NCBI GenBank assembly: GCA_026988015.1
Contig: JALSMA010000026.1
Coordinates: 1-58,959, forward strand
Source of the DNA: Desulfobulbaceae bacterium
GTDB taxonomy: Bacteria > Desulfobacterota > Desulfobulbia > Desulfobulbales > Desulfocapsaceae
DNA: 58,959 bases
Reading direction: 5' to 3'
A program made the position numbers and the translations under genes. This document shows, one piece after another, positions 24,705 through 39,543 of this stretch. The notes under the pieces are model-generated. The model was not told where the DNA came from, did no database searches, and saw nothing but the letters and a program-made list of their open reading frames with translations. Every line of letters begins with the position of its first letter. The first letter of the stretch is position 1.

Positions 24705-25781
24705 ATGCAGGACTTTACTTACGCCAGTATCAGTGAACGTATTTTGGCAGGTGACAGATTAAGTGATGGTGAGTTTCTTTTTCTTCATGGCCATGGTGAT
24801 CTGTATCAGTTGGGTTTCCTAGCCAACGCAATACGCGAGCAACGTCACCCCGAAAAAAATGTAACTTATGTCATTGATCGCAATATCAACTATACCGACA
24901 TTTGTATTTCAGCCTGTAAGTTCTGTGCCTTCTTCAAGGCCCCCGAGGATAAAGACGGATATCTGCTCAGTAAAAACGAACTTGCCCTGAAGATAAAAGA
25001 AACACAGGCTCTTGGAGGAACCCAGATTTTGCTGCAGGGTGGTTTGCACCCTGATCTCCCCCTTGAATACTATGAAGATATGCTCCGCTTTATGAAGGAG
25101 ACTGGTATTCATGTACATGGCTTTTCTCCTCCGGAGATCCATCATTTTGCAGAGATATCTAAACTTTCCATTGCAGAGGTTATTTCTCGCCTGATCAAGG
25201 CCGGGCTTGGCTCTATTCCAGGTGGTGGTGCTGAAATCCTCTCTGACAGGGTTCGATATTCAACAGCCCCGAGAAAGTGTAATGCTGATCAGTGGATAGC
25301 GGTGATGGAGGAGGCACATCACCAGGGGCTTCGTACCACTGCCACCATGATGTTCGGTCATGTCGAAACCGTTGCAGAGCGCCTTGAGCATCTACGCAGG
25401 CTAAGAGAACTTCAAGATCGTACAACAGGATTCACGGCTTTTATACCCTGGCCATTTCAGCCCGATCATACCGCTCTGGTTGAGCAGACTGAAATAGAAA
25501 AAACAACCGGATATAGCTATCTGAGAATGCTTGCTCTGTCACGGATCTATCTTGATAACTTTGAAAATATTCAGGCATCATGGGTTACCCAAGGGCCAAA
25601 GATTGCTCAACTGTCACTCTACTTTGGAGCTAATGATTTCGGCTCAACCATGATAGAGGAAAATGTGGTGGCCGCAGCGGGTATCAGCTTCCGCCTCTCT
25701 GAAACTGAGATAAGGCGGTTGGTGACTGATGCCGGGTTCACCCCTAAGCAGCGGTTGATGGATTATACCCTCGTTGTCTGA
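24705..25781 (+). CDS. mqnC: Cyclic dehypoxanthinyl futalosine synthase (radical SAM)
   Basis: 358 aa. CISACKFC (Cys67, 71, 74) is the radical-SAM motif; QILLQGGLHPDLPLEYYE and GFSPPEIHHFA are typical of MqnC, as are TTATMMFGHVET and FIPWPFQPDHT. It cyclises dehypoxanthine futalosine to the spiro/naphthoquinone precursor. The product is cytosolic and its substrate arises from MqnE plus deaminase plus a hydrolase not seen here. The gene is followed 9 bases later by the deaminase gene. Confidence 0.9.
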   Translation: MQDFTYASISERILAGDRLSDGEFLFLHGHGDLYQLGFLANAIREQRHPEKNVTYVIDRNINYTDICISACKFCAFFKAPEDKDGYLLSKNELALKIKETQALGGTQILLQGGLHPDLPLEYYEDMLRFMKETGIHVHGFSPPEIHHFAEISKLSIAEVISRLIKAGLGSIPGGGAEILSDRVRYSTAPRKCNADQWIAVMEEAHHQGLRTTATMMFGHVETVAERLEHLRRLRELQDRTTGFTAFIPWPFQPDHTALVEQTEIEKTTGYSYLRMLALSRIYLDNFENIQASWVTQGPKIAQLSLYFGANDFGSTMIEENVVAAAGISFRLSETEIRRLVTDAGFTPKQRLMDYTLVV

Positions 25782-36483: not shown

Positions 36484-37686
36484 TCAGAAAGTCATGGAGG
36501 CATCGCGGACGATCTGTCCCATTTCCCTCACAGCCTGATCAAGTCCTACGAAAACAGCCCTGGCGATGATGGCATGACCAATGGAGAGCTCCTCAATGGT
36601 GTCCAGGGCTGCTATTTTTGCCGTATTTTGATAATCCAGGCCATGCCCTGCATTTACCCGCAACCCCATCTGGTAAGCTTCTTCGGCTGCAGAGGTTATT
36701 AATTGGTATTCTTTTTCCTGGATAATTTCATTTTCAGCATCACAGTAGCGGCCGGTGTGTAATTCAACGTAGGTTGCTCCGATGGCTTGGGCTGCTTTTA
36801 CCTGTTTAGCTTCCGGATCAATGAAAAGGGAGACAGGGATACCGGCTTTATTCATCTGGTTGATGGTTTTAGCGAGTTTTTTCTTCTGGCCGGTTACATT
36901 GAGACCGCCTTCAGTGGTGAGTTCCTGTCTCTTCTCGGGGACAAGCGTTACCATGTCAGGTTTCAGTGCTAGGGCGATTTCTACGATCTTTTTGTTGGCG
37001 CCCATTTCCAGGTTCATTCTGGTTTTAATGGTTTCGCGGAGCAGATGAATATCACGATCATTGATATGCCGCCGGTCTTCGCGAAGATGAACAACGATAC
37101 CTGAAGCTCCTGCGAGTTCACAGATGGCTGCTGCGGCAACTGGATCAGGTTCATTTACGCCTCGGGCGTTACGAACTGTTGCCACGTGATCAACGTTGAT
37201 TGCTAGCTGGGTCATTTGATTACTCCTGGAATTGTGTAGCTGTTTGATGAGTTGATTTTCGAGAGCCCACATTTCATTCGCTTCTTTTTCGGAACGTTCA
37301 TGATCATATCCAAGAAGATGAAGAAGGCCATGGGTAATGAGCCATGTGAGTCTGTCATGAAGGGATGTTTTGAGGTTATCTGCCTCCCGACTGGCAGTTT
37401 CAACTGAAATAATAATGTCGCCGAGTTCTTTAATGCCGATACTCTCCACCACACTTAAGGGATCGCCCCCATCGTCAAAGGAGAAGGACAGTACATTGGT
37501 CGGTCCTGTTTTATCTCTATAATTACTGTTAAGCCAGCTTATTTCTTTATCATCGACGAGTAAAACAGAAACACTGTGATTAGCCACCTTATTCTGCTGC
37601 AGAAGCCACAGCGTACGTCTATGCAGAAGTTTAACATTAATACGAAAGGGTGCAGGATCACAGTTGACGGCGATATGGACGCTCAT
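36484..37686 (-). CDS. ybeY-pdxJ: YbeY-PdxJ fusion protein
   Basis: 400 aa in a single frame. Residues 1-157 are YbeY, the zinc endoribonuclease of rRNA maturation, with HGLLHLLGYDH (about 119-129). Residues 158-400 are PdxJ, pyridoxine 5'-phosphate synthase (TQLAINVDHVATVRNARG at the start, HLREDRRHI, GHAIIARAVF at the end). An SD-like AGGAG lies 8 bases before the internal ATG at 37215, so PdxJ may also be made alone. It follows phoH by 11 bases, the common PhoH-YbeY neighbourhood. Confidence 0.92.
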   Translation of the reverse strand: MSVHIAVNCDPAPFRINVKLLHRRTLWLLQQNKVANHSVSVLLVDDKEISWLNSNYRDKTGPTNVLSFSFDDGGDPLSVVESIGIKELGDIIISVETASREADNLKTSLHDRLTWLITHGLLHLLGYDHERSEKEANEMWALENQLIKQLHNSRSNQMTQLAINVDHVATVRNARGVNEPDPVAAAAICELAGASGIVVHLREDRRHINDRDIHLLRETIKTRMNLEMGANKKIVEIALALKPDMVTLVPEKRQELTTEGGLNVTGQKKKLAKTINQMNKAGIPVSLFIDPEAKQVKAAQAIGATYVELHTGRYCDAENEIIQEKEYQLITSAAEEAYQMGLRVNAGHGLDYQNTAKIAALDTIEELSIGHAIIARAVFVGLDQAVREMGQIVRDASMTF

Positions 37687-37697
37687 GGCTTGATAGT

Positions 37698-38666
37698 TTA
37701 TTTACCGGTGGATGATTTTTCGTAGGCGCCAATGATTTTCTGAACCAGCGGATGTCTTACTACATCATGCTTTGAAAAGTTGCAAAAGCGGATTCCATTG
37801 ATATTGTGAAGTATATTTTTTGCATGCAGGAGTCCGGATTGTTCGGATCGTGGCAGGTCGACTTGGGTCACGTCACCGGTGATGACTGCAGATGACTCAA
37901 ATCCAATGCGGGTGAGAAACATCTTCATCTGTTCCCTGGTCGTGTTCTGGGCCTCATCGAGGATGATAAAGGCGTCATTTAAAGTGCGACCGCGCATAAA
38001 GGCAAGGGGGGCTATTTCGATGATTCCCTGTTCTATGTAATCAGCGCTCTTGTCAGGGCCAAGCATATCACTGAGAGCATCGTACAGGGGGCGCAGGTAT
38101 GGATTAACCTTCTGTGCCAGATCGCCTGGCAGAAATCCGAGTTTTTCACCGGCTTCAACAGCTGGTCTGGTAAGAATTATTGATCGAACCTGACCGGTGC
38201 TGAGTGCTGAAACTGCCATGGCAACAGCAAGATAGGTTTTACCTGTTCCGGCAGGACCAATCCCGAAGACGATGTCGCTGTTACGGATTGCATCAATATA
38301 GCTTTTCTGGTTTTGGGTTTTTGGCGAAACAACACGGTTCTGTGCCGTGATATAGACCTTGTCGAGAAAGATTTTGGAAAGTGTGGCCTTTGGGGTTGCT
38401 TCGAGAACCTGAAGTCCAAAAGCAAAATCGGAAGTATATACTTTGAAACCCCTAGTGAGCAGATCGTAAAATTGTTTCAGAAGATCCGCGGCAAGGTCAA
38501 CTTCATGCGCAAGACCACTGATGTGAAGACCATTACCCCGGACATGAATAGTGACACCGATATTCTGCTCAATCAGGTGGAGATTCCTGTTTAATTCGCC
38601 GTAGAGAACCCCCGCCTGACTGTTGTCAGGAAATGAGAGTTCCTGACTTTGTTGCTTTGTGGCCAT
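37698..38666 (-). CDS. phoH: PhoH-family ATPase/helicase
   Basis: 322 aa from ATG 38666 (MATKQQSQ), chosen for AAGGAT upstream and to avoid overlap with the preceding gene; a frame start at 38756 exists. GIGPAGTGKTYLAVAMAVSA is Walker A, AFIILDEAQNTT is Walker B, and a KH-like N-terminal segment (VTIHVRGNGLHISG) precedes them. PhoH-like proteins are cytosolic ATPases tied to RNA metabolism and usually sit next to ybeY, as here. Confidence 0.92.
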   Translation of the reverse strand: MATKQQSQELSFPDNSQAGVLYGELNRNLHLIEQNIGVTIHVRGNGLHISGLAHEVDLAADLLKQFYDLLTRGFKVYTSDFAFGLQVLEATPKATLSKIFLDKVYITAQNRVVSPKTQNQKSYIDAIRNSDIVFGIGPAGTGKTYLAVAMAVSALSTGQVRSIILTRPAVEAGEKLGFLPGDLAQKVNPYLRPLYDALSDMLGPDKSADYIEQGIIEIAPLAFMRGRTLNDAFIILDEAQNTTREQMKMFLTRIGFESSAVITGDVTQVDLPRSEQSGLLHAKNILHNINGIRFCNFSKHDVVRHPLVQKIIGAYEKSSTGK

Positions 38667-38673
38667 CTGCTGC

Positions 38674-39543
38674 TTATCCTTTTTGAGCGAGTTCCTCGTC
38701 GATAAGTTTTTGGATGGCTTCGAAAGTTCTGTTTTTAAGCTTAATACCATTGACAAAAATAGTTGGTGTTCCAGTTACACCGGCGTTCTCAGCGTCGGAG
38801 AGGTCTTTTTCAACTTTTTCAGCTATTTCATCAGATTCCAGGTCTATTTTGAATTTTTCTAAATCGAGATCAAGTTTAGTGGCTATTCCCAGGATGGCCT
38901 CAGGACCAAGATCGGGCGCTATGGCAAAGAGTTCATCATGAAATTCCCAGAACTTCCCCTGTTTACCAGCAGCAAGAGCTGCTCGGGCTGCGGGTTCAGC
39001 ATATTGATGAAAGCCGAGAGGCATGTTTTTCAGGATGATTTTGACGGTATCTGGGTTATTCTCGAGCACCTGCTCAAGTAGTGGCACCGTAGTGCTACAA
39101 TGGGGTCACTCAAAGTCCGTAAAAACAACCAGGTTGATTGGGGCATTAACATTACCGAGGAATGGGGAACCGGCGGTGTCTACTTTGACGATAAAATCTA
39201 CAGCAATGTCAGTGAAGCTGTTGTCTTTTTCATTGATTAGATATAGTCGTTCTCCTCGGGGGGCAATGTCAATGGCGGAGACCCCGGCACTGAGCCCGAT
39301 CGTTCCGAGAAGCTCTCCGGATGATTGATATACCAGGACTTGAGATTTGTTGGTAAGGATAAAAACCTTCTTGCCATCAAGTGAGTAGACAATGTCAAGG
39401 GGTTTGGCCGGGAGTTCCCATTTGCTTTCAACCTGGAGCTGAACTTTCGCAGCATCTGTGGCATCGGCAGCAGCTATAGCCGTAGAACCTGATAAGGAAA
39501 GCAAGAGTAAAGCACTGGCTGCAATACACTGTTTGTATGTCAT
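38674..39543 (-). CDS. Exported DsbA-like thioredoxin-fold selenoprotein (UGA = Sec)
   Basis: 289 aa if the TGA at 39106-39108 is read as selenocysteine. Upstream the frame is VVFTDFE, downstream PHCSTTVPLLEQV, so the TGA replaces the first Cys of a DsbA-type DFE-C-PHC motif, giving UPHC. A SECIS-like hairpin begins 27 bases after the UGA (39061-39078). Residues 1-25 are a signal peptide. About 35-115 resembles a YVTN/beta-propeller fragment (LDGKKVFILTNKSQVLVY). The C-terminal half is a DsbA/DsbG-like domain with VTGTPTIFVNG (cis-Pro). It likely acts as a periplasmic thiol oxidoreductase. GAGG precedes ATG 39543. Confidence 0.85.
39061..39078 (-). promoter_or_regulatory. SECIS-like hairpin
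   Basis: On the mRNA strand, CTTGAGC-AGGU-GCTCGAG forms a 7-bp stem with one G-U pair. The GG-containing loop starts 34 bases after the UGA. This fits the bacterial SECIS pattern of a stem-loop 16-37 bases downstream with a G near the loop start. SelB binding is inferred. Confidence 0.6.

Follow-up and report, generated by a model that had tools for sequence, protein, structure and literature searches.

A putative DsbA-like selenoprotein gene with two hairpins downstream of its UGA codon, and the alternation of selenocysteine and cysteine among its relatives

The locus, its protein and the possible redox role

The stretch of DNA analysed here, referred to below as the window, covers 58,959 nucleotides of a Desulfocapsa-like genome. 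Its minus strand holds, at 38674..39543, a coding sequence for a DsbA-like protein of 289 residues, which ends at a TAA stop (38674-38676) and contains a sole in-frame TGA at 39106..39108. Under the standard code the same stretch gives two half-ORFs, one of 145 amino acids (39106-39543) and one of 137 amino acids with a GTG start (38674-39087). An earlier note on this DNA had taken these two broken-looking frames for a single frame broken by the TGA alone, and our re-reading leads to the same result. The TGA stands at x in the active-site sequence F-T-D-F-E-x-P-H-C; read as selenocysteine (Sec, U), it would be residue 146 and the first position of a U-P-H-C motif, a placement in the note that both the translation and the homologue column bear out. 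The second, resolving active-site cysteine is residue 149 (39097..39099). We consider it very probable, as far as the selenoprotein core of the interpretation goes, that the locus is one gene encoding a DsbA-family thiol oxidoreductase in which Sec replaces the nucleophilic Cys.

The gene is followed, after a gap of 7 bases, by a phoH-like gene on the same strand (37698..38666). This is a conserved neighbour, found beside 41 of the 66 TGA-bearing and 39 of the 44 Cys-bearing full-length loci described below, with some of the loci ending before phoH. Next in the gene row comes ybeY-pdxJ as one continuous frame (36484..37686, minus strand), a frame that is likewise continuous in all 12 relatives picked for a check, and in many loci tig lies upstream in the opposite direction. 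Since these are housekeeping genes, they say little about a redox partner. Elsewhere in the window, at 25779 on the plus strand, another TGA separates 360 and 418 open codons of the same frame; with no UxxC-like motif and only a weak downstream fold (-5.2 kcal/mol), these are probably two adjacent genes.

Relatives of the protein are widespread. The family search gave a match at E <= 1e-20 in 89 of 93 genomes, three of which (G071, G073, G083) match in the DsbA domain only; a wider contig scan gave 54 loci, the close ones coming from Desulfocapsa, Desulfocapsaceae, Desulfobulbaceae, Desulfobacterales and Deltaproteobacteria. A search of phages returned seven records, none covering 80% of the query and all below 60% identity. 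From 171 tblastn places, 155 were left after the removal of 16 duplicates. Of these, 110 count as full length, with the alignment starting at query position <= 40 and ending at >= 200; the other 45 are 43 short copies (query start > 100) and two partial ones. The full-length loci, drawn from the 93-genome family search and the one contig scan, are a subset of the family matches. At the column of the putative Sec they have TGA in 66 cases, TGC in 30, TGT in 14 and no other codon. The alignment of homologues that the earlier note had proposed as a check thus places U or Cys at exactly this position. The 43 short copies have 17 TGA, 25 Cys and one AGC (Ser, L105) there. The copies L138 and L160 in genome G035 carry TGA, and the copy in G036 (L153) carries Cys. 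On contig 97 of G052 (L164, L185), a TGA copy has as its next neighbour one with a C-E-T-C active site, and about 20 kb further on lies a match containing one TGA, two TAG and one TAA.

The protein begins with a likely signal peptide of about residues 1-25 (39469..39543), recognised by eye from the translation, and residues 1-28 have a pLDDT below 50 in the predicted structure; the protein would probably be exported to the periplasm. The catalytic part is a DsbA/thioredoxin_4 domain of residues 124-283 (38695..39174), which passes the family cut-offs of both PF13462 (83.4 vs 23.2 bits) and PF01323 (66.7 vs 25.6 bits). Across a protein alignment of 36 loci (A2), all 36 members match both families at E <= 0.1, and the pair U146/C149 (U counted as C) is invariant together with Pro260 (38764..38766), the proline before the last strand in G-T-P-T, which we take to be the cis-proline of the thioredoxin fold. 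The best NCBIfam match over the catalytic domain, NF041057, scores 70.8 bits, far below its 190-bit cut-off, and the DsbG family (PRK11657) scores 16.1 bits against a cut-off of 124; the protein belongs to neither. In the predicted structure (36 alignment rows for the full protein, 30 for the N-terminal part), the folds closest to the catalytic domain among the matches listed are 3gyk, BdbD, alpha-DsbA2 and ScsC. The ScsC/Com1-like DsbA proteins (3gyk, 4xvw, 7rgv) and BdbD (3eu3) share the catalytic fold with Z scores of 21.0-23.5 over 164-171 residues; these are presumably all Cys enzymes.

All 50 structure matches listed begin at model residue 94 or later and leave the N-terminal part uncovered. 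Because the search with the whole model was filled with DsbA rows, a separate prediction and search were made for this part. Residues 29-120 (39184..39459; strands within residues 48-114) were modelled by AlphaFold as a single chain with a pLDDT of 90.3, and the predicted fold is a two-bladed beta-propeller fragment. Profile matches are to WD40 and YVTN propellers, natural and designed, and Foldseek matches to two-bladed units have E-values of 3.7e-4 to 1.9e-3, with 6r5x_B at E 3.7e-4 and TMt 0.71. The units matched include the designed 6r5x (four two-bladed fragments), Cake2 and v13Bagel2 and the natural Ph1500, a hexamer around a 12-bladed propeller; ordinary WD40/YVTN propellers match about as well. 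Compared with units of the 6r5x/Ph1500 type, the fragment here is fused to a DsbA domain that would contain selenium, and its own fold is a single-chain prediction. Since a two-bladed unit cannot close a propeller by itself, an oligomer is expected, and the fragment is perhaps an oligomerisation module: the propeller fragments of several subunits would form a ring displaying the catalytic domains. The description of this part as propeller-like in the earlier note therefore stands as a predicted fold. Within the host's own family the protein is not rare, as the matches in 89 of the 93 genomes show.

In the periplasm the enzyme would most likely make or shuffle disulfides and be re-oxidised by a partner of the VKOR type. 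Among the host's genes is a VKOR-DsbA fusion (L022 853-2022) whose active site has Cys, and PF02683 (DsbD_TM), the only DsbD family searched, found no match in this 99.82% complete genome, the control being positive in 10 of 14 genomes. These two observations tilt the balance slightly toward an oxidase, with a reductase or isomerase about as plausible; the VKOR fusion already carries a DsbA domain of its own, which limits its weight for the oxidase. We would give somewhat less than an even chance to a selenoprotein that acts like ScsC or DsbC/DsbG, as an oligomer that isomerises or reduces disulfides. Sec is usually regarded as favouring reduction; ScsC from Proteus mirabilis and from Caulobacter is among the closest solved folds, with Z of about 21, and the N-terminal module, with its 6r5x and Ph1500 matches, is possibly oligomerising. 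Against this, the missing DsbD_TM match leaves the usual electron source of an isomerase unaccounted for in the host, and the P-H-C after Sec is that of E. coli DsbA.

Two hairpins behind the UGA

The apical hairpin of the putative SECIS element (hairpin 2) lies at 39061..39078 on the minus strand and is assigned from fold, conservation and covariance model together. It is an unbulged helix of 7 bp capped by an AGGU loop (39068-39071), with its stem starting 27 nt and its loop 34 nt after the UGA; the stem length, the loop and its distance are those given in the earlier note. According to PMC13188914, the bSECIS core model allows a loop of 3-9 nt on a stem of 4-16 bp, places a G within the first two positions of the loop, sets the distance from the UGA at 16-37 nt and asks for a minimum free energy <= -7.5; a distance and model for bacterial SECIS elements appear also in PMC10778597. 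The window's own copy falls within the core model (AGGU loop, 7 bp, 34 nt, -8.6 kcal/mol). So do 63 of the 66 TGA genes, where synonymous shuffles would give 1.9, and two of the 63 do so through the spacer hairpin rather than hairpin 2; the strict form fails in three of the 66, and only three of the 44 Cys genes fit the model. All 66 TGA genes form at least six of the seven pairs of hairpin 2, as do four of the 44 Cys genes; the loop is AGGU in 60 of the TGA genes, AGUU in 5 and GGUU in 1.

The fold is not a by-product of the encoded protein, since shuffling among synonymous codons gives a mean fold z of -3.46 for the TGA genes (60 of 66 at <= -2), as opposed to -0.57 for the Cys genes (5 of 44). 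Three of the seven pairs show double-sided changes, three are invariant and one departs through unpaired cells only. Over both helices, including the spacer hairpin treated below, the double-change cells number 36 vs 11.4 in shuffled alignments, and the covariation score is 0.159 vs 0.100, both above all 500 shuffles. Two of the five covariation measures are weak: further pair types number 10 vs 9.8, a value reached by 317 of 500 shuffles, and double-sided changes occur in 5 pairs vs 3.1 (26 of 500 shuffles).

Codon usage gives a similar picture. Between sequences that encode the same residue, synonymous codon agreement in hairpin 2 is 0.81 in the TGA genes and 0.40 in the Cys genes; over codons 20-40 it is 0.41 and 0.46. 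The loop codons CAG and GTG are identical in all same-residue pairs of TGA genes, whereas the same Val codon agrees in 28% of such pairs in Cys genes. The Leu-Glu-Gln-Val-Leu-Glu stretch would therefore seem to be largely dictated by the RNA. A covariance model of the element scores this gene at 65.4 bits in the window, with one other match of 10.5 bits (E 1.2), and over six genomes every one of its seven strong hits (>= 63.7 bits) belongs to this gene family. Assigning the element to an Rfam family was rejected, as just four matches were obtained, with E of 2.7 to 9.5 and all far below their gathering scores.

Other genomes of the family also carry a second kind of gene, a single-domain DsbA selenoprotein (UPHC or UAHC; L166-L180) with its SECIS loop nearer to the UGA. 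Minimum-energy folds of 13 of these 15 paralogues have a hairpin loop that starts 19 nt after the UGA and no separate spacer hairpin, and five of the 15 fit the strict bSECIS model. A search of the window's own genome found no such paralogue.

In the gene in the window, the 27 nt between the UGA and the SECIS stem are partly taken up by a second structure, the spacer hairpin (hairpin 1, 39081..39098, minus strand). It comes in two registers, of which register B has its 5' arm shifted by four bases relative to register A. One or the other is complete in 53 of the 66 TGA genes (46 A, 7 B), where synonymous shuffles would give 7.4, and in two of the 44 Cys genes; the mean fold z of the spacer is -2.39 in the TGA and -0.82 in the Cys genes. 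Within the 46 register-A genes, columns 12/27 are C-G in 28, U-A in 17 and U-G in one, both bases being third codon positions. Register B is complete in L074, L076, L079, L082, L083, L158 and L162, two of which have a double-sided change (L162 at columns 16/27 and L079 at 19/24); the 16/27 exchange is thus seen in just one of the seven genes.

It could be argued that amino-acid or codon bias produces this hairpin incidentally and that hairpin 2 alone is functional. Hairpin 1 is indeed the less regular of the two: 13 of the 66 TGA genes are without a complete register, including the window's own copy, which has four of the five register-A pairs plus an inner stem. Moreover, three of the five pairs in register A are invariant and a fourth varies in just one gene, nearly all of the change falling on the fifth, and codon agreement over the hairpin is only modestly higher in TGA than in Cys genes (0.60 vs 0.48). 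The excess of complete registers over the shuffles, their near-confinement to TGA genes and the lower spacer z all speak against a by-product, as does the exchange of C-G for U-A in 17 of the 46 register-A genes at two third codon positions, and we regard this explanation as unlikely. With hairpin 1 folded, 7 + 2 = 9 unpaired nt are left before hairpin 2, which is near the 11 nt of the E. coli element. A functional hairpin 1 would fold the spacer away and bring the stem of hairpin 2 near the UGA, and in doing so would restore the distance that SelB needs.

Recoding of the UGA

The nearest relative, L023 from another genome, is 90% identical and has the same TGA. Downstream of the TGA the two genes differ by 40.8 synonymous and 16.2 non-synonymous changes (dN/dS 0.08), and upstream dN/dS is 0.034; judged by these ratios, the coding sequence after the TGA is under purifying selection.

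The earlier note had also proposed a search for selA, selB, selC and selD, and all four were found in the host genome (G000; a 3.15 Mb draft of 91 contigs, listed as 99.82% complete). The tRNA-Sec gene (selC) scores 76.1 bits against a 47-bit cut-off and is called as tRNA-Sec by ARAGORN too; the profile matches are 510.5 bits for SelA, 375 bits for SelB (cut-off 242.25) and 374.1 bits for SelD, whose gene has one in-frame TGA of its own. The UGA would thus be recoded by the host's SelA, SelB, SelC and SelD through a SECIS within the coding sequence, SelB reading the AGGU-capped hairpin 34 nt downstream.

At the thresholds used, selA was found in 70 and selC in 77 of the 93 family genomes. The selA gene was not found in four genomes of one or two contigs (G022, G026, G035, G036). 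We do not read this as loss, because in G027 and G037 the DNA beside selA is masked (N), in G037 adjoining 16S rRNA; such masking near selA may be the cause of the missing calls. In one genome selA is close to a 16S rRNA gene, and in many drafts it is near contig ends (L193, L192). In ten of the 93 genomes (G003, G034, G044, G045, G053, G057, G074, G084, G085, G086) a second, weaker tRNA-Sec match also exceeds the cut-off.

Competition between termination and Sec insertion is general, and one could imagine that the UGA is recoded only in part, or that Cys or another residue is placed there by near-cognate reading, with the short product as the main one. We find this very improbable, since the synonymous sites of the SECIS are conserved in the TGA genes and not in the Cys genes, and TGA and Cys interchange across the relatives. 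That the TGA is a real stop, with the gene broken by mutation or sequencing error or its halves being separate genes as the two ORFs of a standard translation would have it, can practically be dismissed: 66 of 110 full-length homologues from many genomes have TGA in the identical column and the rest have Cys, dN/dS is low downstream, the genome has the full Sec machinery, and the downstream ORF taken alone starts at the 19th base after the TGA and is without the active-site positions 146 and 149. The note had called a chance stop unlikely, and chance is excluded by the TGA-or-Cys column in all 110 genes, the dN/dS after the TGA and the counts from the SECIS model. Overall, the original observation is confirmed as real, and its interpretation as a selenoprotein is supported by these comparisons of sequence.

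Sec and Cys across the family and comparison with known systems

The Sec/Cys label was traced on a maximum-likelihood tree of 106 of the 110 full-length members, with the active site and the next 15 residues masked; L149, L162, L181 and L182 (all TGA), which run off their contigs, were left out. The label changes at least 18 times (17-19 over 5-95% of bootstrap trees), and well-supported branches force 13 changes in the careful tree and 9 in a quick tree. When rooted on the L074/L078/L082/L083 group, the tree has 19 maximal all-Cys and 30 maximal all-Sec groups. It should be kept in mind that some of the members are paralogues, that several end branches are long and that gene transfer may add to the changes. 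Given how little the SECIS differs between distant TGA genes, repeated loss of Sec would be a simpler account than repeated gain.

Two Cys genes still have both hairpins intact: L028 in G022 (z -4.09; 64.9 bits with the covariance model) and L030 in G006 (z -4.83; 63.7 bits). In both genomes selC, selB and a selD containing TGA are still present; G006 also has selA, which was not found in G022, possibly because of masking. The idea that these genes have Cys because their genomes lost the Sec trait is therefore unsupported, and the two genes are read as probable recent Sec-to-Cys reversions that retain a fossil SECIS. A search for further fossils, which scored 150 first-look candidates per genome, gave hits of 20-24 bits in G059, in its Cys paralogues, and two other weak hits, but with E of 0.06-0.36 these are at chance level and were set aside.

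Taken together, these results suggest a broader proposal: a distinct class of two-hairpin SECIS, with two registers by lineage that fold away an overlong spacer, together with frequent Sec-to-Cys reversion, up to 19 independent events in or near one family, caught in the act through fossil SECIS elements. We see the case for this combined proposal as evenly poised. PMC1794560 describes 15 changes from Sec to Cys, spread over four families and in some cases with remnant structures, and the 2026 review PMC13188914 treats such reversions as rare and mainly limited to FdhA and SelD. Frequent reversion, if true, would contradict this published view of rarity and of restriction to FdhA and SelD. A dense family with Sec or Cys at one catalytic position, along with fossil intermediates, would make it testable when selenium pays its cost. 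Similarly, the rules for finding selenoprotein genes and for placing Sec sites would widen if a hairpin in the spacer can stand in for a short distance between UGA and SECIS.

A limited search of titles and abstracts in the open-access literature turned up no report of a bacterial SECIS with two hairpins, of fossil SECIS elements in this DsbA-like family or of a fusion between a two-bladed propeller and DsbA. A known bacterial SECIS for comparison is that of E. coli formate dehydrogenase, which has a loop sequence of the GGU type; the element described here resembles it in being an in-frame hairpin after the UGA with a GGU-type loop. In the E. coli element, as given in PMC8659212, the upper stem is 11 nt from the UGA and has a bulged U17. 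The element here departs from this fdh type in having a plain 7-bp helix, 27 nt off and with another hairpin in between.

At the protein level, DsbA-like selenoproteins of the UxxC type have appeared in published lists since 2005-2006 (PMC1088965, PMC1794560, PMC2398784 and PMC13188914), including one in the deltaproteobacterium Anaeromyxobacter (PMC1794560). The Rcas_1661 thioredoxin-like (seleno)lipoprotein family, NF041057, which is called DsbG-like in PMC13188914, is a relative by its catalytic domain and does not include the present protein. The published DsbA-like UxxC set (PF01323; "DsbA-like protein form 1" in PMC13188914) shares with it the DsbA domain, Sec in the first active-site position and a SECIS within the gene; the gene described here has in addition the predicted N-terminal two-bladed propeller and the spacer hairpin, although the published set may include such an architecture. 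The protein class is a known one; what sets this case apart is its architecture, together with the hairpin in the spacer and how densely Sec and Cys alternate.
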